From NCBI GenBank assembly GCA_010093515.1, contig MU001676.1, positions 753,739 through 817,738 of the forward strand: DNA of 64,000 nucleotides, written 5' to 3'. The stretch's first letter is position 1. Every line of letters begins with the position of its first letter. Shown here piece after piece: positions 12,252-34,536 of this stretch. Both the position numbers and the translations under genes were made by a program. The notes beneath the pieces were generated by a model. That model ran no database searches. It was not told where the DNA came from and was given only the letters and a program-made list of their open reading frames with translations. The DNA comes from Lineolata rhizophorae. Its lineage: Eukaryota; Ascomycota; Dothideomycetes; Lineolatales; Lineolataceae.

Positions 12252-14877
12252 GGGACGATGAGGAGACCTTTAAAGCAACAAGAAAAAAAAAAAAAAACCA
12301 TAAAACTGCAAAACCTCCAAAAACACAGAAAAGAAGCGGAGAAAATGGAAGAAAAAAAAGTTTTTCTTTTCTTCAAGATGAGATGTTTTGTGGTTGGACT
12401 GTTGGTCCTCCTTTTTCTTTTTTTTTTTCTTTTTTCTTTTTGCTTTTTTTCCTTCCTGCTTTTTCTGCCTCTTGTCGTGCAGTACAAAAGCGTCTGGAAA
12501 GAGTCGGATCACCTACACGCCCACTCTGCCCTCGCCGGCTCCAAAGGACGTCCTCGAGAAGCGGACACGTGGGAGGCAGCCAACATGAGCTAGTACGTAC
12601 ACAACTTCGTACGTGCGGGGCCGCGCCGTCCCGAAGAGGCGGCCCTTTTGTCAGCCACAGGCGCGCTGCAGATGGATCGCCGAGCGAACACGGCGCCGAC
12701 GCGCTCGACGGATGGCGCCAGAGATGGTTGACGACGAAAGAATCATCGTCGGGGTGGGCGCGTTGGGGGGAGGCGGGCCCGGATCGGATCAGCACCCACG
12801 GGCAAAGCACGAAGCCGGCCACGGCCAGGATGATCCCCACCAACACTCGTCACGGGCGGATGCTTACTCTGCCCGTCACGAGTCGCCCTCCCCGGGAAGG
12901 AAAAAGACGCCATGTGCTCGGCTCCACGTAAACACCCGGACGAGGGCTCTGCGGTTTACATCAAACCGTAGCCCGGCTCCGCATATAGCCCCCTGCACAC
13001 CCCACGGGCTTCATATCGTCGCCGCTCTGCTCACGGGCACCATATTAAGGTACCCGTTCCGGCGCCGTGGCATGATGCCATCAAAGGCAGACCCGCATCC
13101 CGGCAGCGATCCCCGGCCTCGACTCTCGTGAGCTGCAAGGCCGGGGGAGCGCGCAGTTCCTCGAGGCTTCGGAGGCCGGCGGGACTGCGTCCTTCCCGGC
13201 CGAAGCCGCGGCGCTCCGTGGGGTTGTCGTGATGGCGGGTCGCTCGTCCCCGGAGCTTGCCCCGGCGGCGCGCCCGGTTGGTGCCAGCAGCGCCGGGCCG
13301 CGGTGGAGCAGCCCCCCAATCCCGCGAGAGCCCTGTCTCGGCGGCGCGCGCGGGTCTCCGGGCGCGTTTGTTGCTCGCTTTTTATTTCAAGTGCGGCCTT
13401 TTCCCTTCCATCCCTCCTCGCCATTCCTCACGCCAGCCGGCTGGGCCGCTGCTTTTCCGCTCGCGCTCCTCTTGCGACATTTTCCGGGGCCTTTTATGTT
13501 GCTCCTCTCTCTCCCTCTCCCTCTCCCTCTCCCTCTCCCTCTCCCTCTCCCTCTCCCTCTCTCTCTCTCCTCTTCTGTTCCACCTGCGACCGCACGAAAA
13601 GCCCGCGTCGTGGCTCCTCGGTCCCGCGCGAGCAGGGATCTCTTGCGCTCGAAACGCGGCGCACCAACATCCTTGGGCCCGGCCAGGGACAGCCCGGACA
13701 CAGGGCGACGGGCGGAAGCGGCGCGCCTATCGTTTGTACCTGCTACTACTGCATACGTCGTAGCACGCAGAGCGCAGCCGCTAGGCCGTTTCTCGCCGCC
13801 ACCCGAGCGCCCAGCGCCGCGCAAGGCACGTTTCGCCGGCGACTGGTGGTGGTGAAGCAGCCCGCGGGACCCCTCGGATCGACCGCCGCTGGTTAAGAGA
13901 ATATTCACCAAAAAAAGCGCCCCCATTTTGGTCTCCGTCGCCGCCTCCCTTCTCCGCCGTCTCCCGCTCTTCTCCTCGTCATTTGCCTTTTACTTTTCTT
14001 TTTTTTTTGTCGTGCCCTTTCCTTGGGCGGGTGTAGCCGATTGTTTTGCTGCGCCGGGCGTCGGAGTGCTCAGCACCTCCTGCCTCCTACCTGGGCCCGG
14101 CGTCGTCATCGCGGCCGGCGCGCGTTGCTCTTCCTCCTCCGCAGTCGCCCGCTTCCCACCCCCTTCTTCGCCCGCAAGTTCGCGGCAGCCGCGGCGCATT
14201 CTGCCCCTCGGGCGCACCGAGGGACCGCGCCGCCAGTGCAATTGAGGCCAGGAGCCCGCCCGGCGCGTCGTCGTGGCGGAAGGAATGGCTGTGGACCTCG
14301 GCGGCGTCCCGTTCGACTTGCCTATTTCGTGAACTGGTGATTCTACTGCCCGCCACACCGCGAAAGCGACCGGGTCGAGCGTCAATCTTTGGTGCCGGCG
14401 GACGCTCGCCTCCTTTCGAGCTCTCCCCTCCCGTGCGACTTTGGTAACCGCACAACCTTCGCCTAGCTCATGCCGGACCAACCCAACCCGTCGTCGAGAG
14501 AGAACCACTCAACAAAAGAGCGCCAGGCGCAATTGCACCCACAACTGTCGAGACCGTGGCCATTGACCACGTCCGTCCGTTTTCCAACGTACCGGCTAGC
14601 GACAGAATAACAAATCAATCGAGCGACTGACGACGCCAGAGCCCGCACATTTTGTTGGTTTCGTCTGGAACGCCACCGGCAACCCCCGCTCGTCAATTGC
14701 GTTGCCCTGTTGCTGGCTGGGTACGTCAGTAACAGCTAGCGGCAGCCAGCCGCCGTAACACTTGTTTCTCCCGGAGGGCCGAAAACCGGTCTTCCACATT
14801 CAGTTCGTCCTTTGGGTTTCTGCGACGGATTCCGGTGGATATTCGCCCTTCCTTTCCTTCCAAAGTACCTGCCAAAT
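12252..14877. other. Long GC-rich leader/intergenic stretch with homopolymer tracts
   Basis: A 2.6-kb stretch between two plus-strand genes. At 12285-12440 an A-rich run is followed by a T-rich run, which could fold and acts as a plausible 3' end for the upstream gene. The rest is GC-rich with a pyrimidine repeat at 13504-13575 and a T tract at 14001-14010. Many overlapping open frames exist on both strands, but none shows conserved motifs and all follow from high GC. Part of it is probably a long 5' leader with upstream ATGs for the next gene. Confidence 0.45.
13504..13575. repeat. CTCTCC/CT microsatellite
   Basis: About 72 bp of tandem CTCTCC units that break down to plain CT at both ends. 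It lies in the long leader region upstream of the 14878 gene and produces an artificial Arg-Gly open frame on the minus strand. Pyrimidine tracts like this are common in fungal promoters. Confidence 0.95.
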
Positions 14878-17037
14878 ATGTCCATCTGGCGCGGCGCTCA
14901 ATCCGCCATATTCTACTACCTGTCCTGCACTCCCTGCACAAATGTCTCGCTTCAACGCCGCCGCAAACGCGAGGCCCGCGAAGCCCGCTCTCGCCGCAAG
15001 GTGCTCGAGATGGAGCAACCGGGCCTGTACCGACACCCGTCCCCGTCGGCCACGAATCCTTTCTGGGCGGAGGAGATGATGGCCGGTCCCGGCCCGCCGC
15101 CGAGGCGCACGAGAAAGGGCCGCACGCCTACCGATTCGAGCTTCGCGGAGAAAGGCGCCGCTGCTGGCAGAGTCGGGACCGCGGAGACGACGAGCACGGC
15201 GGTAAGCAGCCCGGGCGGAGCAGGAGGGCGGAGTAGTCGTGGGAGAGAAATGAGCGGTGGAGGCCAGAATGGAGGACTGTTCAGTTCGTGGGGCGGCGGC
15301 GGCGGCGGCGGAAGCCAGAGAAGTGGGCGTGGTGGTGGCCGTCATAACCATGACCCGCAACACCCGGTGCCTCTGAGCTTGAATACGTCTGGGGATACCC
15401 TGGGTGGTACGGATGGTGTGGAGGATGACATCCATTGGAACCGCCGCCCTGGCTATCAGCGTGCGGACGAGGCATTGTGGGGACTAGACGACGAAAGCGA
15501 CGAAGATGGACTTGAGGAGGAAGACGACGCGCACGTAGCCGAACTCGCGCCGGGCCCGGTATTGGTGAGGCCTCGCGGATCAGGAGCGACGGGAGTTCCT
15601 GGAGGAGATTCCCGGAATGGACCGGTACGACAGGCGCGATCGGCAGGGTCGTCGATTGGATTGGCTGGTACAACGGAAGGAGGGCAGCCTATAATGAGCT
15701 CGTCGCCCTCTTCGTCATGGTCGGCCACATCGAGGCTTTCGAAGACGGACGGGCAGCGTGGACCGCTTCGACGCACGACGTCAGGGGTATCGGTGGCAGG
15801 CGGCGGAAACGGCGGTAGCAGCTACTATACCCGATCAGTGCCGCGAGCGCCGCCGGTTAACGACCTGCACCCACCGGTTGTGAGCACGCCCCCCAGTCTT
15901 GAAAGCACGCGTTGGATGCTGCAGCCTCCGCCAAGTGCGAAGGTCATGGAGGGTAAAGCTCCTCCGGCGAGCGCTAGAGGTAGCGAAGACGGCGGACCCG
16001 GGAGCACACGGAGTAGGAGCGGGAGTGGAGGAAGCAGTCTACGACGGGCAGGAGGAGCAGGAGGCGGTGGATCAGAAGTCTCACTTGGCCGTCAGCTGTC
16101 GGCAAAGGCCGTACGGGAGAAGTTGAACCGGGGCGAGACACCTCCGGTGCCGTTCCCGCGCTCGAACACGGCTCCCAATGGGATATCGACTACTCCTCGC
16201 CGTCCGAAAGTCAAAAGAGGGAGAACGACTCCATCCACACCACTTTCCTCGTCGTCTTCGGCCTCAAATACCTCCTCTGAAACCATCGCTGTTGGCGCCG
16301 CTGCCTCTGCCACCGCCGCTGTCACCATCACTTCACCACCACCCCCCGCCGCTCTCCAACCTCTCCCACACAGCGCGCCCAACGCAGTCCCCGCTCACCG
16401 CCGGCCTCCCTCCCGCCCCCAACTCGCCCCCATAAAATCCGCCTCGCTCATCCCGCACCGCTCCGACTCGAAGGAGAACTACCGCCCGTCGTCCGCGACA
16501 TCGCCGTCGCCGTCATCCACGCGGCAACCAGAAGCCACGCGGCGCAAAGACTCGCACCTATCGCACTCGCCATGCGAGCCGGCGGTGGGGCCGCAGCCGC
16601 AGCCGCAGCCGCAGCCGCAGCCGCAGCCGCAGCCGGGGCCCAAGGCGTCGTCGCGCACGCTCGACTCGGAGGCCGGCACGGCGTCCAGCGAGGCCGGCTC
16701 GGCCGTCCTCGTCGCCGACGGCTCGCTCTCGCTGCTGCAGGAGCTCGTCTCGCCGAGCGCGCTGCTGCGGTCGCGCTTCGTCAAGGCGCCGGCCGTGGAG
16801 GCGCGCATCAGGTTGCCGGACGCCGACGCCGAGGAGGAGGTGGCGCTGGAGCAGCGGAGGCGGCGGCGGAGGAAGAGGAGAGAGGGGGAGACGTCGGAGG
16901 GGGGCCGAGCAGGCGAGATGCTGCGAGAGGGGTTGTGGGTGGGTTGGGAGGAGTGGGGGGGGTGGGCGCCGGGGGGGCCGTTGGGGATCGGAGCGCAGCA
17001 TGATGCGGGGAGGGCGAGGTGGAGTGTGGATTTTTGA
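14878..17037 (+). CDS. Large low-complexity fungal protein with conserved N-terminal membrane-associated segment
   Basis: Intronless 719-residue protein. The start at 14878 is chosen because MSIWRGAQSAIFYYLSCTPC, followed by a basic helix and GLYRHPSPSATNPFWAEEM, matches the conserved beginning of a Pezizomycotina-specific protein often labelled 'signal peptide-containing protein'; the frame is open 66 bp further upstream. The Cys-rich SCTPC end of the hydrophobic segment could be a lipidation or anchoring site (inference). The remaining 600 residues are Ser/Pro/Gly/Arg-rich and disordered, with Gly runs (residues about 138-165), an acidic patch and a Pro-Gln repeat encoded at 16594-16637. 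The C-terminal 120 residues contain a helical LLQELVSPSALLRSRFVK element and end in a Trp/Gly-rich tail. Function unknown. Confidence 0.75.
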   Translation: MSIWRGAQSAIFYYLSCTPCTNVSLQRRRKREAREARSRRKVLEMEQPGLYRHPSPSATNPFWAEEMMAGPGPPPRRTRKGRTPTDSSFAEKGAAAGRVGTAETTSTAVSSPGGAGGRSSRGREMSGGGQNGGLFSSWGGGGGGGSQRSGRGGGRHNHDPQHPVPLSLNTSGDTLGGTDGVEDDIHWNRRPGYQRADEALWGLDDESDEDGLEEEDDAHVAELAPGPVLVRPRGSGATGVPGGDSRNGPVRQARSAGSSIGLAGTTEGGQPIMSSSPSSSWSATSRLSKTDGQRGPLRRTTSGVSVAGGGNGGSSYYTRSVPRAPPVNDLHPPVVSTPPSLESTRWMLQPPPSAKVMEGKAPPASARGSEDGGPGSTRSRSGSGGSSLRRAGGAGGGGSEVSLGRQLSAKAVREKLNRGETPPVPFPRSNTAPNGISTTPRRPKVKRGRTTPSTPLSSSSSASNTSSETIAVGAAASATAAVTITSPPPPAALQPLPHSAPNAVPAHRRPPSRPQLAPIKSASLIPHRSDSKENYRPSSATSPSPSSTRQPEATRRKDSHLSHSPCEPAVGPQPQPQPQPQPQPQPGPKASSRTLDSEAGTASSEAGSAVLVADGSLSLLQELVSPSALLRSRFVKAPAVEARIRLPDADAEEEVALEQRRRRRRKRREGETSEGGRAGEMLREGLWVGWEEWGGWAPGGPLGIGAQHDAGRARWSVDF
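16594..16637 (+). repeat. CCGCAG trinucleotide-pair repeat inside the 14878-17037 gene
   Basis: Seven or so CCGCAG units encode an alternating Pro-Gln run. It is in frame and part of the disordered C-terminal half of the protein; length variation between strains is likely. Confidence 0.9.
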
Positions 17038-17755
17038 AGATAGTGCCCCCCCCCTTTTTTTTTTCCCTTTTTGTTTTGCTTGGGATGTTTGATGGAAGCA
17101 CTGGTTACGATTTTTATTGCGGGGGTTTTTTTTTTTTTTTTTTTGCTAGCCGGGTTGGCTCATTCTTGTTCTGGTCTTGCAGAGTTTGTGTCGGCATTTC
17201 AGCGTCCTTGTATATGTTTCTGGGTGTTTTGTTATGGTATGGGCACGAAAATCCTTCTTTCCTTTGGGTTGCTAATGACTGGGATGGAGAAAACCGGCGG
17301 CAGGCTTCACTTTGGTTCGTCACGGAGCGTGGCATCGGCGTTCTCCCTTGCGGATTCGGACGATATGGTACAAGCATGTTTTGGGGTTTGGCTTCAAGTT
17401 GTCTGGTTCTTCTTTCATTGCAACCACTCCCGTTGGAGGCTGGGGTTGAATGGCTAAGCCATGGCTTTCTGCTCCTGTCCGCGAACATATTTTATTTTCC
17501 TTGGGATAGCTAGGTCGGTTGCGCAGGGACAGTGCAATGGGAGCGTTCAGGTTCATCTTCATCAGACTCAGGCGAAGGTTGCGATCTGGGGGGGAAATCA
17601 TTACGTACGAACGGTTGATACTTTGTGTGCATAAATACGCAACAGAGTGAAGAAATAAGATGCTGTATATTTCCAATTTCGACAGTGCTCAGATAACTGA
17701 GAGCAGTGTTATGCATGCTTAAACTCTTAACGGGAAGAGCCCCCATATCCACGAC
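17038..17755. other. Intergenic region between convergent genes
   Basis: About 720 bp between two stop codons. It starts with C/T homopolymers (17047-17070) and a T tract at 17127-17145, as expected for a fungal 3' untranslated region. The open frames on both strands carry no recognisable motif. Confidence 0.45.
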
Positions 17756-20291
17756 CTATTGCAGTCTTCCCTTGGCCAGTTCGATTGCCTTCTCTGCCGC
17801 CGCATCGAAATCGTCAAATGCATAGAGCGGATATCCACTTTCGGCAATCTGGGGTACAGCGCTTGTGGTCAGCAAACAGACAACATAACCCCCGCCCGAG
17901 AAGCCGAGCCCCCCCAGGCCTCGAAGAATCAAACTCACAATCTTCCGCCCCTCCTCCTCATTCGTGCCCCTGATCCTCACCACGACCGGCACCTCCCCGC
18001 GCGCCCCCTTCCCCCGCGCGTCCTTAAACGCCATCACGACCCCCTCGGCGACGACGTCCCCCTTGGTCAGCCCCCCGAAGATATTCACCAGCACGGCCGC
18101 GACCCGCGGCTCCGCCAGCACGAGCTCGAAGCAGCGCGCCACCGTCGCCGCCGTCGCCTTGCCGCCCGTGTCGAGGAAGTTGGCCGCGCGGATGCCGGCC
18201 GAGGCGCCGCGCGCCCCCAGCGCGTCCACCGTGTTCATGGCCAGCCCGGCGCCGTTGACGATGGTGCCGACGGCGGCCGCCGCCGTCGGGGAGTCGGACG
18301 GAGGGCCAAGAAGGCGTACGAAGGCTATGCCGTCGCGCGCCGCGGCCGCTGTGGCCGCTGCGTCGGCGTCGGCGTCGGTCGCGTCCGGGGCGGGCTGCGG
18401 GCGCAACGCGGCTGCGGCTGCGGTGCCGGCGTCGTCGAAACTGCACTCGGGAGCGAAGGCGACGATGGTCTCGGTGCTGCCATGGTCGTGGCCGTTGCCG
18501 TGGCCGGTGCCGTGGCCGGCGCCGTGGCCGGTGCCGTGGCCGTGGTGGCTGCCGCTGCTGCCAATGCTCGGGCCGGTGCCCTCGTTCGCGCCGCCTTCGT
18601 CCACGATGGCAACCTGGACCTCGAGCCGGAGCGCCTCGGCGGCGCGGAAAGCTTGCCATAAGAAGCCGAGCAGCTCCGCGGCATGTTGGGCGGCGCCTGT
18701 GTGGCTGATGAGGTGGGCGTGAGTAAGGGCCGCGCCGATGATGGCGACGCCGGGGCCGTGGGTGTAACAGAAGGGAAAGAGTTTGCGGTCGGGTGCTGAG
18801 GTGGACGACGGATCTAGGCGGGCTGAAACGAGGCAAGGAGCACGGGTTGTGCGGTCGATCGTGATGCCGAGGAGCGCGGCAGCTTCAGAGTCGGGTGGAG
18901 TCGTGATAAGATAGGGGATGGAATGTTGCTCGTGAAGGAAGGTACTAAGGAAGGTATGTGCCTGGGAAGAGGAAATGTGGAGCGCGCGGCGGTGCTGGAG
19001 GACAGAAGGTGTTGGAGATGGGCGTTGTCGTAGTAGAGTATGCAGTCCGCGACGCTGTTGGCTAGCCGTTGTTGAAGGGGCAGAGCCGCCGGTGGAACCA
19101 TGTAGCAAGCGCTTCATGACATTGCCAAATTTGGAGGGATGGTCAACCATTGTGACTCCTGCATCCTGGAGAGCGTAGTACTTCTCATCTGCTGATGCCT
19201 CACCAGGAGAAGCGAAAGCTCCGGCATGACCCATGATGTAGCCTGGTCTAGCGCACATACCCACAACTAGAGCGGCTATCGGCCTTCAAGATTATTAGAT
19301 CGCTTCTAATGTCCCAAGGGACTTCTCCAAACGGGGAAGGAAGCAATGTTCGAACTTAGAAGGGAACAACTCACTTCGGACTCGTACACCTCTTTCTATA
19401 CTCACGAATCCATTCGGCTGCATCTTCCTCCGCGCGTCCTCCAACTTCACCGATCAAGATAATGCCCTGCGTATCCTCATCATTTTCAAACACGCGCAGC
19501 GCGTCTACAAAATCAGTCCCGGCTACGACATCGCCTCCCATGCCGATGCACAGACTCTGACCGAGTCCTGCGCGCGTCGTCGACGCCGCGGTCTCGTAGC
19601 TGAGTGTCCCGGACTTGGATACGATGCCGACGTGGCCTGGCGAGAAACATGGGATAGGCTGAAAGCCGATACGGCAGCGGTGGATGGCGGAGATGATGCC
19701 AGGAGAGTTGGCGCCGATGAGGCGACACTTGGATTGTGTGGACAGCATAGAATGGACCTGTGGCGAAAGGAAATAACGTGAGATTTGGGACTACTGAAAT
19801 AGAAGAAAACAAGCTGCTCTCATTTGACTGCGTGCGGCTGTTCAACGTACTCTTAGCATGTCATGCACAGGCACATGCTCCGCGACAGCCACGATCAGCG
19901 GAATTTCGGCCTCGACAGCCTCTTCAATGGCGCCCGCAGCATATTGCGCAGCCACGAAAATCGCAGTGGCGCCCGGATTGAGCGCGTCTTTGGCGGCTTT
20001 AACGCTGGCGAGTACAGGCAAGTCAAGATGCTCGCCTTCCCGACCAGGAGTGACACCCCCAACGACCTTGGTCCCATAGTCAATGGACTGTAGCGCATTC
20101 ACGGTGGCTTGTTTACCGGTAAAGCCTTGGTATATAACGCGGGTGTGAGATCCAATGTTGAGATGTGAGATGGTGTTCGCATAGTCCAGAGGGTAAGAAG
20201 TGGAAGAAAAAGGAGCGACTCGGGGAAGCGAAAGACTGCGCAAGGAAAGACGCCGTAAATGGCGAGGACAGTGAGAGACACGCAGAGCCAT
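17756..20291 (-). CDS. Fusion of succinyl-CoA synthetase alpha subunit with a degenerate beta subunit
   Basis: Exons 19851-20291, 19375-19757 and 17756-19283 give one 783-residue protein in phase. Residues 1-30 are an Arg/Ser/Leu-rich mitochondrial presequence. Residues about 33-145 are the CoA-binding domain (YQGFTGKQATVNA, VVGGVTPGREGEHL). Residues about 150-340 are the alpha ligase domain, with the phosphorylated histidine His294 in IMGHAGAF. After a Ser/Thr-rich linker, a motif resembling a second presequence and a beta N-terminus (about 350-385) follows. Only a remnant of the ATP-grasp domain is left; the nucleotide-binding lobe is missing. A Gly-His-rich insertion lies at 520-543. The beta CoA-ligase domain (about 590-781) is well kept: VNGAGLAMNTVDALGARG, then LVNIFGGLTKGDVVAEG. 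Normal fungi have separate alpha and beta genes, so this is probably a paralogue whose catalytic ability is doubtful. Confidence 0.85.
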
Positions 20292-21463
20292 GATAGAAAA
20301 TGACTACGACAAAATGCCAGACCAATCGAAAGTTAGGAATGAAATTGACTGGACGGAAGACTGAACAAAACTCGACAAGCTCTCTAATCAGCCGGACTCT
20401 ATTGCAATTCTAGGGTTTAGCGTCCCATTGTGCTTTTGCAAGAGAATGAAAACTGTACGAAATTGAGAACGAGCAGTAGGAGGTAGGAAGAGGCCGAAAG
20501 CAGGCGCACAAGACGCGGTGTCAGACTGCCGGCCTTATAAAGCGGGCGCTAGGCGGAGATACCGAGGGAACCAGTGCGGATGGCGGATATCATTGCGAGA
20601 TACTTAATGCCGATCTCGGGGGCGGTCTCGTCCCGCTTCGAAGAACGGAGCTCGAATTCTGGACTGATTTTGGAATCACACAATCGCCATGGAACGGCAG
20701 CGCGCAGCTGGAAATGCTGTGGTTCAACTTATAAGTGCTCCCTACTCCGTTCGCGACAAGGATTCCACTTCATGGCGTGACAAGCCGACGCGGAAACGGA
20801 CGGGAGAGGCTCGTCCTGTGCGGGGAATGGCCAAAGCTCCCGAGAGCTCCTCCGCATCCCCCCGGTCTTGGCGTCGCCAATCCCCAACGGTCCCAGGAAG
20901 CTGTCTGCAATTCTCTCAGCCCACCGCAATTCCCTGCGGCCTTGGCGTAGTGGACGCAGGTAACTACGGCTCTTCGTTCCGCATCGTTTGGCGTCTATAA
21001 AGAGATTGTAGCATGGAGTGCGCCGAGCGCCGCTTCGTAGGAGCGACAACTACGTGTGTACGTTGGGGGTAATTGTAAGTTTGGAATATGCGCCCAACTC
21101 ACCGTCGAAGCTCATGCGGGTCGCGCAAAGGAGACTGCCTGAGGGAGCAGTAACATGCCTGACCTCGACCTCTCTCCAACTCCTGCAAGTGCTTGTGCTT
21201 GCCAACCATAAACACCGAAGGCAGCGACAAAGTCATACCGAGAGCGTAGAGCGGAAGTAGGGTATTAGCCGTAGCTAAGTTCCTATAGAGCTGCACCGAA
21301 GACGCCGACTACGACACTATAGTAGAAGAACGCTCCAAGTAGTATATTGGCCTCCTCGTCGACTACCTATCCTACCGATGGCCGGACTCGAGGGCGGACC
21401 CATCCCGGGTAGACGGGTCTCTTAAGAGCGACTCTGACACCAAGGAAGTCAAGCCGATCAACG
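20292..21463. other. Divergent intergenic region with a coding-like relic at its right end
   Basis: About 1.2 kb. The left part is the promoter of the succinyl-CoA synthetase-like fusion. From about 21290 to 21500 one plus-strand frame reads like protein (VDYLSYRWPDSRADPSRVDG and onward) but is interrupted by stops at about 21286 and 21338, so it may be debris of an older gene. Composition drops toward AT compared with the 11-20 kb block. Confidence 0.4.
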
Positions 21464-22786
21464 ATGCCGAACTCAAGGCTCTCCCGTCGCTTCTCTATCA
21501 ACCACACCACACTCCATCAACAACAAAGTATTATGCCCCGTCGGCCTTCTTTTCGTCCCACAACCTTCCTCAGAACCATGGCCCCTCCCGCATCCACACC
21601 CACGCTTTTCGAAGGACAGGTTCTTGTCGGCAAGCGTTGGCAGTATAGGCTCATAGAGCGCTTTCCCACTCAATGAGGCATCAACAATGTCTTCAAAGCC
21701 GAAGTCCTGGGGGACACATCTGAACGTGGTTTGAAACTGCATGTTATCTCACCTCCCAGCACAACCAAGGTGGTCAGGCTAACTTTTCCACCAGGGCTAT
21801 CATCAAGTCAGCATCTGAGTGGCTGCAAACCGATCTGGTAACTGAATGCAATGAATACTCGTTTCCCAATGTGTCATCGTGCCAATCGATCTGGCCCCTA
21901 TTGGAAGTTATTACTTCCGTGAACGACTTAGCCGTGTCAGAGGTTCGTGGCAACAGCGTCAATGACCCTCCACCGTACCTCGCACTTGCATGGACGGATG
22001 GAGACCTCTATGAGTTTCTTTTGAAGGGTGGCCAGAAAGACCTCGTACTCTTTGAAGCCATCGTGGCCGGAATTTCACAAGCGCTTGTCCCCTTTGAGTC
22101 GAACCAACGGGTGCATACAGGTAAGCCGAGAGAAAACACCGCCCAACCAAGTCCTCACTAAGCAATTACAGATATCAAAGGCGACAACATTATGATCGAC
22201 TGTCCGCAGCCTGGCTTGTACAAAATCGAGCTAGCAGACTTGGGATGTGGTAAGTATGCGCTACCCTTCCCTTCATCGCTATACTCACCGCAACCCAGCG
22301 ACCTACGATGGCTTCAACGACAATCTCCGTGGGGCTGCTGGCTCAGCGGCCCCTGAGGTCCTCGAAGGAAAAGGCTACTCTCATGCCTCAGACCTTTGGG
22401 CACTGGGAATGACGCTCTTGAAGAATTTCAAGGAAGACGCCGTTAATTATGCGCTCCCGGCTGGATCATGGTACCCCGAAGTAGATGTCATTGCCACATT
22501 GAGGCGCCTCTATCCTGACTGGACACCGGAACCGGTCAAGGGGGTGTATTTGATGGGTGTGCCTGTGGTAGACTTGTTCGAACAGGCTAGGGTGTTGGAA
22601 CCGTTTCTTTCGGTCTCCCCGTTGAAGCAGCAGTTAGAGGGTATGAATGCGCCTAAGGAGTTGAAAGATATGCTACATTTGCTGCTCAGCCTGGATGAAA
22701 AGAAAAGGTCATCTGCTGCCAAAGTCCTGAAATCTCCAGCGTATCTGGCTCTGCGCGAGGCAGTTCGTTCTTTGAAACGCGCCTAG
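21464..22786 (+). pseudogene. Protein kinase-like gene with an in-frame stop and a frame mismatch at intron 1
   Basis: Small fungal protein kinase fold. Pieces are 21464-21725, 21795-22120, 22172-22249 and 22299-22786; the last three join cleanly. Kinase motifs are visible: the glycine-loop strand INNVFKAEVLGD, the lysine strand AIIKSASEWL, the catalytic loop HTDIKGDNI (the usual Arg of HRD is Thr), ADLG in place of DFG, and SAAPEVLEGKGYSHASDLWALGM for the APE and helix F region. Two problems affect the first exon: a TGA at 21674-21676, exactly between RLIERFPTQ and GINNVFK, and a one-base phase mismatch between the only plausible donor (21726) and the CTAAC-preceded acceptor (21794). I read it as a pseudogene or very young decay; an assembly error cannot be excluded. 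The start could also be 21533 or 21578. Confidence 0.65.
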
Positions 22787-23487: not shown

Positions 23488-24009
23488 ATGAATTGCTGTG
23501 TAGATTTTCACGTAGATATTAGAAGAAGTTTAAGCTCGAAAGTGTAGTGTTGCAGACATTGTAAATTTTATTACGTGCATTTCATCCCGTGACTTTTGGA
23601 TATTTCTATCATCATTCTATCTTAGAATCACCTAGACCCTAGGGGTTTTGTCTCCTAGGAGCTATAGTCCTGTTTGGCTCTGCGGGTTTCATAGGAGAAT
23701 GTGCCAGAGATAATATTGTTAGGAGTGAAGTGGTGATGCCAAGATATGGTTACCACATACGGTTAGCGCGGGAGTAGCAGGCTTGGATCAACACACGCAA
23801 ATATATATGAGAGATCGGTGCGGGGAAGAAGCACCCCAGCGATCAGTCTCTATTCTGGCCTGCGTAGTGCCTGCTTCCATCAATATCGATCATTCAGTGT
23901 TCATTGTGAGATTCACACGATTAATACACCTCCTGAACCCCTGCTTTACCCCTGCATAAACCCTGGGTCTAACACTTACGTAGTGCTATCTTCAACAGCT
24001 TTAAAACTA
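23488..24009. other. Intergenic region left of the transposon
   Basis: About 520 bp of AT-rich sequence with no coding signal. It ends at the TA target dinucleotide (24008-24009) of the transposon. Confidence 0.4.
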
Positions 24010-24054
24010 AGCTAGCTGACCGGGTTCCGAGTCACCCGGGGTTCCAACTCACTG
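24010..24054 (+). repeat. Left terminal inverted repeat of the transposon
   Basis: 45 bp that match the reverse complement of 25708-25752 exactly. A TA dinucleotide precedes it. Confidence 0.95.
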
Positions 24055-24111
24055 CCCAGAACTCAACACCCTCAACAAAACACGTGTTTTCTCACCACCC
24101 ACACTGCCAAA

Positions 24112-25656
24112 ATGGACAACTGTGAAGAATCTATTCAAGCAGCTATCCGCGATCTTAATGCTGGTGTTTTTACTAGTCAAAGAGCTGCTGCAAAGGCGTA
24201 CAACATCCCTCAAGCTACCTTCTCTGCCCGTGTACGAGGCACACAGAACAGCCAAACCAGCCACGTATACCAACAACGATTGACACCAGAGCAAGAGGAC
24301 TTCCTTGTACAATGGATACTTGAAGAGGACGCACGAGCTTTTCCTCCCTCCCACGCGCGCGCACGAGAAATGGCGAACCGAATACTGAGGATGAATGGAG
24401 ACCACAGGCCCGTGGGCAAGCATTGGATGGCTGCCTTCCTGAAGCGCAACCCACGCGTCGCATCTGTTGTCGGACGAAAGATTGAGGCTGCCCGGGCTGA
24501 NNNNNNNNNNNNNNNNNNNNNNNNNNNNNNNNNNNNNNNNNNNNNNNNNNNNNNNNNNNNNNNNNNNNNNNNNNNNNNNNNNNNNNNNNNNNNNNNNNNN
24601 NNNNNNNNNNNNNNNNNNNNNNNNNNNNNNNNNNNNNNNNNNNNNNNNNNNNNNNNNNNNNNNNNNNNNNNNNNNNNNNNNNNNNNNNNNNNNNNNNNNN
24701 NNNNNNNNNNNNNNNNNNNNNNNNNNNNNNNNNNNNNNNNNNNNNNNNNNNNNNNNNNNNNNNNNNNNNNNNNNNNNNNNNNNNNNNNNNNNNNNNNNNN
24801 NNNNNNNNNNNNNNNNNNNNNNNNNNNNNNNNNNNNNNNNNNNNNNNNNNNNNNNNNNNNNNNNNNNNNNNNNNNNNNNNNNNNNNNNNNNNNNNNNNNN
24901 NNNNNNNNNNNNNNNNNNNNNNNNNNNNNNNNNNNNNNNNNNNNNNNNNNNNNNNNNNNNNNNNNNNNNNNNNNNNNNNNNNNNNNNNNNNNNNNNNNNN
25001 NNNNNNNNNNNNNNNNNNNNNNNNNNNNNNNNNNNNNNNNNNNNNNNNNNNNNNNNNNNNNNNNNNNNNNNNNNNNNNNNNNNNNNNNNNNNNNNNNNNN
25101 NNNNNNNNNNNNNNNNNNNNNNNNNNNNNNNNNNNNNNNNNNNNNNNNNNNNNNNNNNNNNNNNNNNNNNNNNNNNNNNNNNNNNNNNNNNNNNNNNNNN
25201 NNNNNNNNNNNNNNNNNNNNNNNNNNNNNNNNNNNNNNNNNNNNNNNNNNNNNNNNNNNNNNNNNNNNNNNNNNNNNNNNNNNNNNNNNNNNNNNNNNNN
25301 NNNNNNNNNNNNNNNNNNNNNNNNNNNNNNNNNNNNNNNNNNNNNNNNNNNNNNNNNNNNNNNNNNNNNNNNNNNNNNNNNNNNNNNNNNNNNNNNNNNN
25401 NNNNNNNNNNNNNNNNNNNNATAAAAGATTAAATAGTCAACTTGAGGCTCTTAAGCCTCAACAGCCACGAAAGAAAGTTCGTGTTAATCCAAATCAACGA
25501 TTTGCAGATATAGATACAATCATGGTTGCTGTACAGGCCTCACAACTTCTTGAGGCACAACGGGATGCCGACGCTGAGGAACGGGCAGCAGAAAGAGTAG
25601 CAGCTGAAACAGCAGCTCAAACACTTCAGTCTATGTGTACAGAGTGGCAATTGTAA
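24112..25656 (+). CDS. Transposase, DDE superfamily with CENP-B-type HTH domains (middle unknown)
   Basis: The visible N-terminus (about 130 residues) starts with a psq-type helix-turn-helix (AAIRDLNAGVFTSQRAAAKAYNIPQATFSARV) split here as AAIRDLNAGVF plus TSQRAAAKAYNIPQATF, followed by a Tc5/CENP-B-type second helix-turn-helix with LTPEQEDFLVQWI and KHWMAAFLKRNP. These bind the terminal repeats. The catalytic DDE core falls in the run of unknown bases (24501-25420) and cannot be assessed. The visible C-terminus has a basic patch KPQQPRKKVRVNP and a Gln/Glu-rich tail, typical of Fot1/pogo proteins. Frame continuity through the gap holds only if its estimated length is correct. Confidence 0.85.
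   Translation: MDNCEESIQAAIRDLNAGVFTSQRAAAKAYNIPQATFSARVRGTQNSQTSHVYQQRLTPEQEDFLVQWILEEDARAFPPSHARAREMANRILRMNGDHRPVGKHWMAAFLKRNPRVASVVGRKIEAARAXXXXXXXXXXXXXXXXXXXXXXXXXXXXXXXXXXXXXXXXXXXXXXXXXXXXXXXXXXXXXXXXXXXXXXXXXXXXXXXXXXXXXXXXXXXXXXXXXXXXXXXXXXXXXXXXXXXXXXXXXXXXXXXXXXXXXXXXXXXXXXXXXXXXXXXXXXXXXXXXXXXXXXXXXXXXXXXXXXXXXXXXXXXXXXXXXXXXXXXXXXXXXXXXXXXXXXXXXXXXXXXXXXXXXXXXXXXXXXXXXXXXXXXXXXXXXXXXXXXXXXXXXXXXXXXXXXXXXXXXXXXXXXXXXXXXXXXXXXXXXXXXXXXXKRLNSQLEALKPQQPRKKVRVNPNQRFADIDTIMVAVQASQLLEAQRDADAEERAAERVAAETAAQTLQSMCTEWQL
24501..25420. other. Assembly gap (920 unknown bases)
   Basis: A run of N inside the transposon, as happens when a multicopy repeat cannot be assembled through. This suggests that other near-identical copies exist in the genome. 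Confidence 0.99.
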
Positions 25657-25707
25657 CTACGTTGAGAGAATAAACACGATTTTTCATGAGGATGGGTGGT
25701 TTCGGGT

Positions 25708-25752
25708 CAGTGAGTTGGAACCCCGGGTGACTCGGAACCCGGTCAGCTAGCT
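25708..25752 (-). repeat. Right terminal inverted repeat of the transposon
   Basis: 45 bp, the exact reverse complement of 24010-24054, followed by the TA target duplication. Confidence 0.95.
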
Positions 25753-25827
25753 TAGGGGTGTGTGTTAGAATATTAGGTAGCCTATTTGGGCCTAGTTCGC
25801 CAAACCCTGACAGGGATTCTACAAGTA

Positions 25828-25863
25828 TATTTATGCAGCCTCAGATAGCACCATTTTTCCAAT
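25828..25863 (+). repeat. Left arm of a 36-bp dispersed inverted repeat
   Basis: 36 bp identical to the reverse complement of 30097-30132, and similar for some bases beyond. It lies just outside the transposon and 160 bp upstream of the APH-like gene. Confidence 0.9.
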
Positions 25864-26021
25864 GTCAATTACATTAGGATCCGGCACGCCGGCCCACCTA
25901 AATTTGGCGTCCTTCGCCTTGTCCTTTTCTGGCAACCGCTTTCTAGAGCTTTTCTTATATCAGGAGTCTACACTTGAGTACGTATAGTCCATTTCTATAG
26001 TTATGCACGCGATACGGCTTT

Positions 26022-32067: not shown

Positions 32068-34536
32068 ATGGCTTCGCCCGAGGAGCCACTGGTCGCGCAA
32101 ACCACCGGCGACGTTATCAACCAAGCACCCGAGACCTCCGTCGCAACAGACAATGAAACACGCGACACGTCCACGACTAAGGACATGCCTGCAGCAGTTG
32201 GAAACGGGCCCAAGGTCGACAAAGCCATTAGCACCGAGCATGGTGGAAGCGGCGCCGCTGCGACCAACGGAAGTGGCCAGCCACCGAAAGATGATAACGT
32301 GGCGTATGTGGATCCACTATGCATGGACTACGAATGGAAACCTCCGCCTGTGAAGGAGCACCCAGAGGGTGATGCCATCCGCCGTCAGGTACGTACTCTC
32401 ATCTCCGAAGACAAGAAGTAGCAAATTTCCTACGCTTTTCCATCCCCGTACCAGAGAAAAGTAAACTAGACGGTACCCTTCGGTCCTTTTCAGGTCGAGT
32501 ACTACTTCTCAGACGAGAATCTCCCGTATGATGAACACTTGCTCGAGAAATGCGGTGGTGTCGAGAACAAACCTGTCCGCATCAAGCACATCTGTGGCTT
32601 CCCTCGTATGCGCAAGTTCAAGCCTTTCACACAGGTGGTCGAAGCCCTTCGCAGGAGTGCCTTTCTTGAGGTTTGCTCCGGCAACACCATTCGTCGCCGT
32701 GTGCCGCTGCTACCGGACATGTTGGTACATTCGGACGACAGCGAAGTGGAGGGTGGCGAGAAGGATGAGGACAAAGACAAGGACAACAGGAAAAAGGAGG
32801 AGAAGAGGGGCCTTGTACCGCCGCCGAAGCGGATGAATCAGAAGACGCAGAAGGACACGGGCATGCTCAAGGGGTCGACCGGCTTCGAGGAGTTCTTTGC
32901 AGAGGCACCATTGACCCCCGAGCAGGTCAAGGAAGAGAGCGGCCTCTATGATGAGAAGAAACCCATCACTGAGTATGACCGTCCCTATATGGCTCCCACA
33001 CTGTTTCTGTTGTTTCTTATTTACTCACTTGTTTATTGCAGACGCCTGGAAATCGCTATCCACCGCTACAAGCAGAAGCGCAAGTTTTGGACCTTTGCAG
33101 GCCAAGTTTTCAATCGTTTCCTCAAGTATGGCGGCGTAGAGGCGAAGGAGCGCCAGTTTACGGGACCGATGGACGAGGTCCTGACCCAGAACAAAGACAA
33201 GGGCGAGGTCGCGCAGCTACTTGCAACCCACCAGCTCGACCCCGAGCTTGATGAAGCGGACACATGGGTTGTCGACTTCGAAGGCGTGGCCAAGGGTTTC
33301 TTGTAAGTTCTGCCCGTGCGCCAGATTCCGGTAATGGTACAGCAAATATCGAGCAACCTTACTGACGACATACTCCGTAGCTCCTCCGTATACCCCGTAT
33401 TTACCTCGTCTGTTACACCCCGCATGACCCGTGAAGCTACGGGAATTTTGCGCAACTTCTACAACTATCTCATGTACCACGACGTGTGTCCTGAGTACGC
33501 CGACTCGCTCGTGGCCGCTAGGCGTATCTGCGACCTAGCCGATCGGGAACTCCCTCGCGTGCGTCGCGCCGGTCTGCGCCTTCCCGGCGCCTTCAATGTC
33601 TCCTGTTCCGAGCTCCACAATGGCTATTGGTCTGGCATGTTCGTCGGCAAAGACAACTCTTTCATTCACGGCCGCTCTGACTGGGCCGAGGACGAAGCCG
33701 TGGCCGACCGCGAACTCGATGAAGAGGAAGGCCTCGAAGATGGCGAGGAGACGACCGGGGCACCCCGCGTCTGCCAAGCACTGGGCCCCATCCAGGCGCG
33801 CGTCGTCTTCTTCACAGCGCTAGCGTCACAGATGGACGAAGAGGAGCTGGACGCCTTGCAAAAAACGACGCGGAAGCTGGGGTTTGCGGGCAGCATGGCT
33901 CAGGAGCTCACACCCATGGGCCTCGAGGTCGCTCACGTCGAGATGCCGAACGAAAGGACCCTCCGCTTCTATGAGATGGCGCGGCTGAATCTACGCACCG
34001 ACTTCAAAGTCGGCCGCGCCATGCAGCCCGTCGGCAAGCTGCATTGCCGGCCGTGGACGCCTCCCGCTTTCGTCAAATACGATCTGCCGGTCGAAGAGGC
34101 CGCGAAGCAAGACCTGAACTCCTCCGATGAGTTGCTTGTCTTCCTGGTCGAAACTGACGTCCTGAGGACCTGCTTCGTCGGCATGAAGCTCGACGCCGTC
34201 GTCGGCCGCATGGTCAACGGCATGCCGTTCCTTGACCAGATCAACAACACTTACGCGTCATTCTACACTTACTTGCCCAACGAACTGCTTTCGACGCCTT
34301 GGAAGGCGCCCGAGATGACGGCACGTGCGCGTGAGCTCGAGATGACGGGCCCAGATGGTGAGATCGTCAAGCGGGACGAGGTTGCTGGCAAAAAAGGCGA
34401 GAATAGCGATCAGGAGGATCCGGCTAAAGTAGGCGGCGGATTAGACACGATGGCGGCGGATGGACTACTAGATTTGACAGATCAGGACATCGGTGAGATG
34501 TATCGGATGCCGGGATGGGAGAGGGTCACCGAGTAG
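32068..34536 (+). CDS. La-motif protein fused to an Arb1 (Argonaute siRNA chaperone subunit) domain
   Basis: Exons 32068-32388, 32494-32972, 33042-33302 and 33381-34536 give 738 residues in phase. Residues 1-100 are disordered. A La-type winged-helix RNA-binding motif follows (about 104-182): QVEYYFSDENLPYDEHLLEK, then ICGFPRMRKF and VVEALRRSAFLEV. After an acidic/basic linker, the Arb1 region starts at STGFEEFFAEAPLTPEQ and runs to near the end, with RLEIAIHRYKQKRK, FNRFLKYGGVEAKERQF, a long central part ending GLEVAHVEMPNERTL, and PWTPPAFVKYD. In fission yeast, Arb1 binds Ago1 with Arb2 and holds duplex siRNA for heterochromatin assembly. La motif and Arb1 region share exon 2 without interruption, so the fusion is real in this assembly. 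A role in small-RNA handling is inferred. Confidence 0.82.

Follow-up and report, generated by a model that had tools for sequence, protein, structure and literature searches.

A single minus-strand gene at 20291-17756 of a 64-kb window of Lineolata rhizophorae DNA (the window being the whole stretch analysed) is predicted to encode one chain made of an N-terminal extension, the alpha subunit of succinyl-CoA synthetase (SCS), a linker and a beta part. Judged from the sequence, the product is a strongly diverged, paralogue-like SCS-related protein with alpha and beta in one chain. In SCS, a textbook enzyme of the TCA cycle, catalysis depends on the coupling of two sites. The initial annotation had proposed that SCS alpha is fused to a beta subunit lacking nucleotide binding, and this is supported by Pfam and NCBIfam matches, by shuffle tests and by the loss of site residues. 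Its further proposal of a regulatory or moonlighting paralogue holds in part, in that it fits the divergence from one human and 83 bacterial alpha sequences.

Gene model and genomic surroundings

All introns of the fusion gene are predictions (Table 1). The three exons originally proposed give a stop-free, phase-consistent frame of 783 residues, and that frame stands, but not its length: the last exon hides intron 3, whose removal leaves a predicted protein of 753 residues, with zero stops in 753 codons, and restores the usual beta C-terminus. Intron 3 is the sole strict donor-branch-acceptor match in that exon and coincides with a 30-column insertion relative to SucC, its 30 codons being without counterpart in the SucC rows. 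Without it, our own beta profile scores 129.1 rather than 108.9 bits and the NCBIfam beta model 145.7 rather than 128.3, and the NCBIfam match now extends to the end of the model. The strict intron pattern occurs once on the sense strand of the Pfam-matched open frames of this window (10,533 bases), and there are 34 matches in the whole window, real introns included, which corresponds to 0.27 per kb per strand. For intron 2, the sole alternative scored (GTACGA/ATAG) is 12.8 bits worse on the alpha match (328.5 vs 341.3 bits). No CTRAY branch site was found in intron 1. By codon usage the proposed frame is the best in seven of nine exon segments, by a narrow lead in exons 1 and 2 and the C-lobe remnant; the linker and the His/Gly stretch do not favour it.

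Table 1 Predicted features of the fusion gene, with positions in the 64-kb window
Feature	Positions	Strand	Description
Exon 1	19851..20291	-	Residues 1-147: N-terminal extension and CoA-binding domain of alpha; Pfam CoA_binding E 3.2e-17
Intron 1	19758..19850	-	GTACGT...CACAG, 93 nt
Exon 2	19375..19757	-	Middle of alpha; carries SKSGTL and IGEVGG
Intron 2	19284..19374	-	GTGAGT...CTAAT...GAAG, 91 nt; AAG acceptor, unusual
Exon 3	17939..19283	-	Alpha end with His294, linker, remnant ATP-grasp C-lobe, most of beta CoA-ligase domain
Linker	18992..19117	-	Residues 331-372; Arg-rich, acid-free; pLDDT below 50 in model
Degenerate ATP-grasp C-lobe	18272..18919	-	Residues 397-612; Glu197 kept; N199Q, D213A, K215E (E. 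coli SucC numbering)
His/Gly low-complexity stretch	18479..18545	-	6/12-nt tandem repeat within C-lobe remnant; missing from aligned SucC rows
Intron 3	17849..17938	-	GTGAGT, branch GCTGAC, CCCCAG; 90 nt, open in frame; overlooked in the initial annotation
Exon 4	17756..17848	-	C-terminal end of beta CoA-ligase domain and stop

Neighbouring genes in the window include PAT1, Kei1, Arb1 and GH72. A 765-residue open frame on the plus strand (14740-17037), low-complexity by eye and with no Pfam match at E 0.001, converges on the fusion gene, and another plus-strand open frame at 22235-22783 resembles, by eye, the C-terminal part of a protein kinase. At 32470-34536 on the plus strand, La-domain and Arb1 matches lie in two open frames of one phase, and the stop between them (33304-33306) sits in an apparent ordinary intron at 33303-33380 (GTAAGT...TACTGAC...CCGTAG). 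An AT-rich, RIP-like island considered at 24-26 kb was rejected: the region is a run of 920 N (24501-25420), an assembly gap, and the low G+C of 24001-26000 and the long open frames there are therefore artefacts. Neither Rfam (at gathering scores) nor a tRNA scan gave a hit in the window.

The alpha and beta halves

Pfam places CoA_binding and Ligase_CoA domains in the alpha half and a second Ligase_CoA domain in the beta half, and among NCBIfam models those of SCS alpha and SCS beta match the two halves best, all scoring under their curated cut-offs. The alpha models match residues 47-335 (E 4.6e-93), with scores of 311.7 against a cut-off of 353.2 and of 310.4 against 336. By sequence, the alpha half is closest in the PDB to human mitochondrial SCS alpha (299 bits), followed by pig (291-292 bits) and E. 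coli (243-247 bits); the bacterial SucD rows begin at about residue 46. The motif GHAGA from residue 293 puts the active-site His at 294 and, together with the Pfam and NCBIfam alpha matches, bears out the full alpha subunit with His294 that had been annotated, so that the alpha domains of SCS are present with their active-site His. The Glu of IGEVGG is the counterpart of Glu208-alpha and is kept; the E. coli SucD equivalents of His and Glu are 247 and 209, initiator Met counted. SKSGTL is presumably the phosphate-binding motif.

Conservation was gauged on a narrow, query-biased sample, because the bacterial alpha rows are the best 80 of at least 576 relatives plus three plasmid copies, with titles mostly of Alpha- and Gammaproteobacteria; 4 fetched records included, the alpha and beta matches numbered 84 and 74, which length filters reduced to 83 and 72 rows. 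On this sample the fusion keeps 67 of the 89 alpha columns conserved at 99% or more (human, 88 of 89) and 87 of the 121 conserved at 95% or more (human, 117 of 121), and in a leave-one-out check every bacterial row retains at least 97.8% of the conserved alpha columns. Retention of the consensus drops with column variability (67/89, 32/51, 26/64, 13/64 and 5/23). The loop after the active His carries Pro301 where human and at least 97% of the 83 bacterial rows have Gly. Alpha identity is 49% between fusion and human and averages 47% between the fusion and the 83 bacterial rows, compared with a mean of 68% between human and bacteria. An unrooted alpha tree of the 83 bacterial rows, human and the fusion sets the fusion and the lone human row apart from the bacteria (98/91), with an unsure placement of the fusion because its branch is extremely long (5.06 vs a median of 0.14).

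The CoA-ligase domain of beta is kept, as the initial annotation had it. Our own profile matches it at E 5.5e-42, 43 of the 61 columns conserved at 95% or more are retained, and its similarity to the SucC profile has a z of 36.9, with 0 of 300 shuffles scoring as high. These shuffle tests used local alignment of parts of the fusion to a profile of 72 bacterial SucC proteins, with 300 shuffles each. The NCBIfam SCS beta model matches from about residue 566 (E 1.9e-42, under the curated cut-off), and SCS beta chains are the top PDB matches of the second half by sequence.

The beta part had also been described as devoid of its ATP-grasp domain, which applies to the N-lobe but not entirely to the C-lobe, where a weak collinear remnant is found. 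The N-lobe is undetectable in residues 331-396 (z 0.5, 69 of 300 shuffles as high), whereas residues 397-612 match the C-lobe with a z of 3.7 and 2 of 300 shuffles as high (sub-stretches 397-505 and 541-612, 8 and 2 of 300, respectively). Eight HMMER segment models run against residues 331-612 all score about 1 bit or less, with 234 and 176 of 1000 shuffles as high for the N-lobe segments, 2, 16, 4, 8 and 16 for the C-lobe segments and 27 for a model of both lobes. The case for the C-lobe remnant is made by the shuffle tests and by order, because at columns conserved at 95% or more the C-lobe does no better (8 of 29 retained) than the force-aligned N-lobe (6 of 23). The linker likewise has no detectable similarity to the SucC N-lobe in the shuffle test against the 72-row profile, and a reading of the linker end as the SucC N-terminus (LHEYQAK...) was rejected (residues 331-420 against SucC 1-100, 56 of 300 shuffles as high).

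The fusion thus lacks the complete ATP-grasp domain of SCS with its nucleotide and Mg residues. At columns invariant in all 72 SucC rows, K46 falls in a gap of the fusion and the substitutions are E107A, N199Q, D213A and K215E. We take N199 and D213 of SucC to be Mg ligands, and K46 and E107 to serve nucleotide binding. Glu197-beta is retained as E496 in the alignment used. An alignment-guided structure model, which depends heavily on the alignment (52 beta rows after dropping L001-L004 and applying an 85% identity filter, 32 of the 52 used), has a mean pLDDT of 62.9 and a pTM of 0.47; its first 75 residues are of low confidence, and the C-lobe part has strands and helices with ten-residue means mostly of 52-83. 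Foldseek of the model ranks SCS beta chains first, at TM 0.23-0.32 and rmsd 16-21 Å (first 49 targets). A single-sequence fold of residues 331-612, made without the alignment, gave no usable structure (mean pLDDT 40.1).

Comparison with known systems

The fusion shares with SCS (human SUCLG1 with SUCLA2 or SUCLG2; bacterial SucD with SucC) the full alpha domains, the active-site His and the beta CoA-ligase domain. In contrast to the separate alpha and beta chains of SCS, the fusion gene is a single open frame in the order alpha-beta, with an undetectable N-lobe and replaced nucleotide-site residues. Some ADP-forming acyl-CoA synthetases and ATP-citrate lyase also have alpha-like and beta-like modules in one chain, and they keep a working ATP-grasp domain; their matches to the fusion are weak, with scores far under cut-off. 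FdrA/AllF, a part of oxamic transcarbamylase, has SCS-family domains like the fusion and, we assume, no ATP-grasp domain. The FdrA/AllF profile matches the fusion weakly (E 5.8e-8), the family model reaching 31.7 bits against a cut-off of 433, and the best matches are SCS subunits. In the available text of PMC8550087, FdrA is called SCS by domain search and is without SCS activity, and its place in oxamic transcarbamylase is a precedent for such functional change (available text of PMC8550087 and PMC11326118). Bacterial Pat acetyltransferases provide an SCS-family module repurposed as an acyl-CoA sensor (available text of PMC8556138). The Pat type combines a GNAT domain with a His-less acyl-CoA synthetase domain; the Pfam scan shows no GNAT domain in the fusion, and the His is kept.

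Single-protein scans confirmed no relative of the fusion among 93 genome-contig and 29 viral-contig pattern matches. Against plasmids, the 783-residue version matched 118 records, in none of which a single place covered 80% of the query, and three regions inspected, of 20 rows listed, carry sucC and sucD as separate genes. The beta part matched 3 phage records, in the CoA-ligase domain alone. Positions 858-1163 of OR850397.1 (1,559 bases, named Staphylococcus phage) encode a sequence with 45% identity to the CoA-ligase domain; the record may be host DNA. No report of such an SCS fusion in fungi was found in titles and the starts of abstracts, in a literature coverage that leaves out most subscription papers. 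Orthologues of the fusion that are unnamed in databases may well exist.

Possible function and alternative explanations

We lean towards a nucleotide-independent function based on site I, sensing included. Site I, which lies between the two CoA-ligase halves, would still bind acyl-CoA (perhaps succinyl-CoA) and phosphate, and phosphate transfer to a nucleotide at site II would be lost. The nucleotide-free work left to the protein would most simply be acyl-CoA phosphorolysis to an acyl-phosphate or a phosphohistidine. The first half-reaction, or at least acyl-CoA binding, has probably been kept, because the His and both Glu remain and the nucleotide-site residues are gone. A fungal mitochondrial enzyme running the first half of SCS chemistry alone, nucleotide-free and in a single fused chain, is a more specific and rather doubtful version. 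For SCS, the available text of PMC10342173 describes His246-alpha as phosphorylated, then thought to move to the nucleotide site, and stabilised by Glu208-alpha and Glu197-beta, and Glu197-beta as acting towards the nucleotide site; the retention of Glu197-beta is therefore not accounted for by loss of that site. An ATP-grasp domain borrowed from elsewhere, the other option raised by the initial annotation, appears less likely, since the alpha-beta interface would already be occupied by the fused CoA-ligase domain.

Site I may itself be inactive, because 22 of the 89 near-invariant alpha columns (99% or more conserved) are altered in the fusion, compared with 1 of 89 in human. The same count speaks for a non-catalytic pseudoenzyme that only binds acyl-CoA, serving either to sense it or to act as a decoy for the canonical SCS subunits, and Pat-type acyl-CoA synthetase domains are described as inactive yet acetyl-CoA-binding and regulatory (available text of PMC8556138). 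However, the type II Pat domains are described as inactive for want of the catalytic His (same text), whereas the fusion retains the active His and both helper glutamates, and we rate a pseudoenzyme as rather unlikely; it is a narrower case of the site-I-based function, without any catalysis, and our estimates for the two overlap. Compatible with the site-I-based function, and in itself unlikely, is a mitochondrial tandem precursor in which the matrix processing peptidase would cut the linker to give separate alpha and beta-like chains, as in yeast Arg5,6, for which the available text of a review gives internal cleavage (PMC8847149). The linker is Arg-rich and acid-free, contains RGL at 353 and RAL at 374, and does resemble the internal presequence initially described, but in composition it does not clearly exceed chance. 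Among 2000 shuffles of the protein, 102 have an acid-free run as long as 323-392, and 575 contain one of at least 25 residues with at least 7 Arg/Lys. A tandem precursor would also leave the loss of the ATP site unexplained. The fusion protein is probably mitochondrial, going by a composition that shuffles often match; residues 1-35 are acid-free, with 6 Arg/Lys.

That the gene is instead the decaying pseudogene of a one-time SCS fusion is improbable in our view. The degenerate ATP-grasp domain, the repeat expansion and the odd AAG acceptor of intron 2 would be in keeping with decay, but the unbroken frame argues against it: at 25% amino-acid change without selection, 753 codons collect a mean of 5.7 stops, and of 300 simulations 1 was stop-free over the whole frame, 8 over alpha and CoA-ligase and 13 over alpha alone (starting from the gene's own sequence and without indels). 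Also against decay, the fusion agrees with human in 67 of 89 of the most conserved alpha columns but in only 2 of 23 of the least conserved, and the frame used scores best in most exon segments (7/9), although often by a small margin. We consider two separate genes or an assembly artefact very improbable. Linker residues 331-412 have no coding signal of their own (-0.32 vs -0.31 in another frame), which speaks for these readings. Against them, there is no in-frame stop, the relaxed donor patterns tried find no donor in the linker, zero N occur within 17700-20400, with the window's only gap at the 920-N run, and both halves are diverged.

A natural chain with one SCS site kept and the other lost would allow the half-reactions to be studied separately. 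Such a chain would also hint at an unrecognised fate or sensor of succinyl-CoA or other acyl-CoA in fungal mitochondria.
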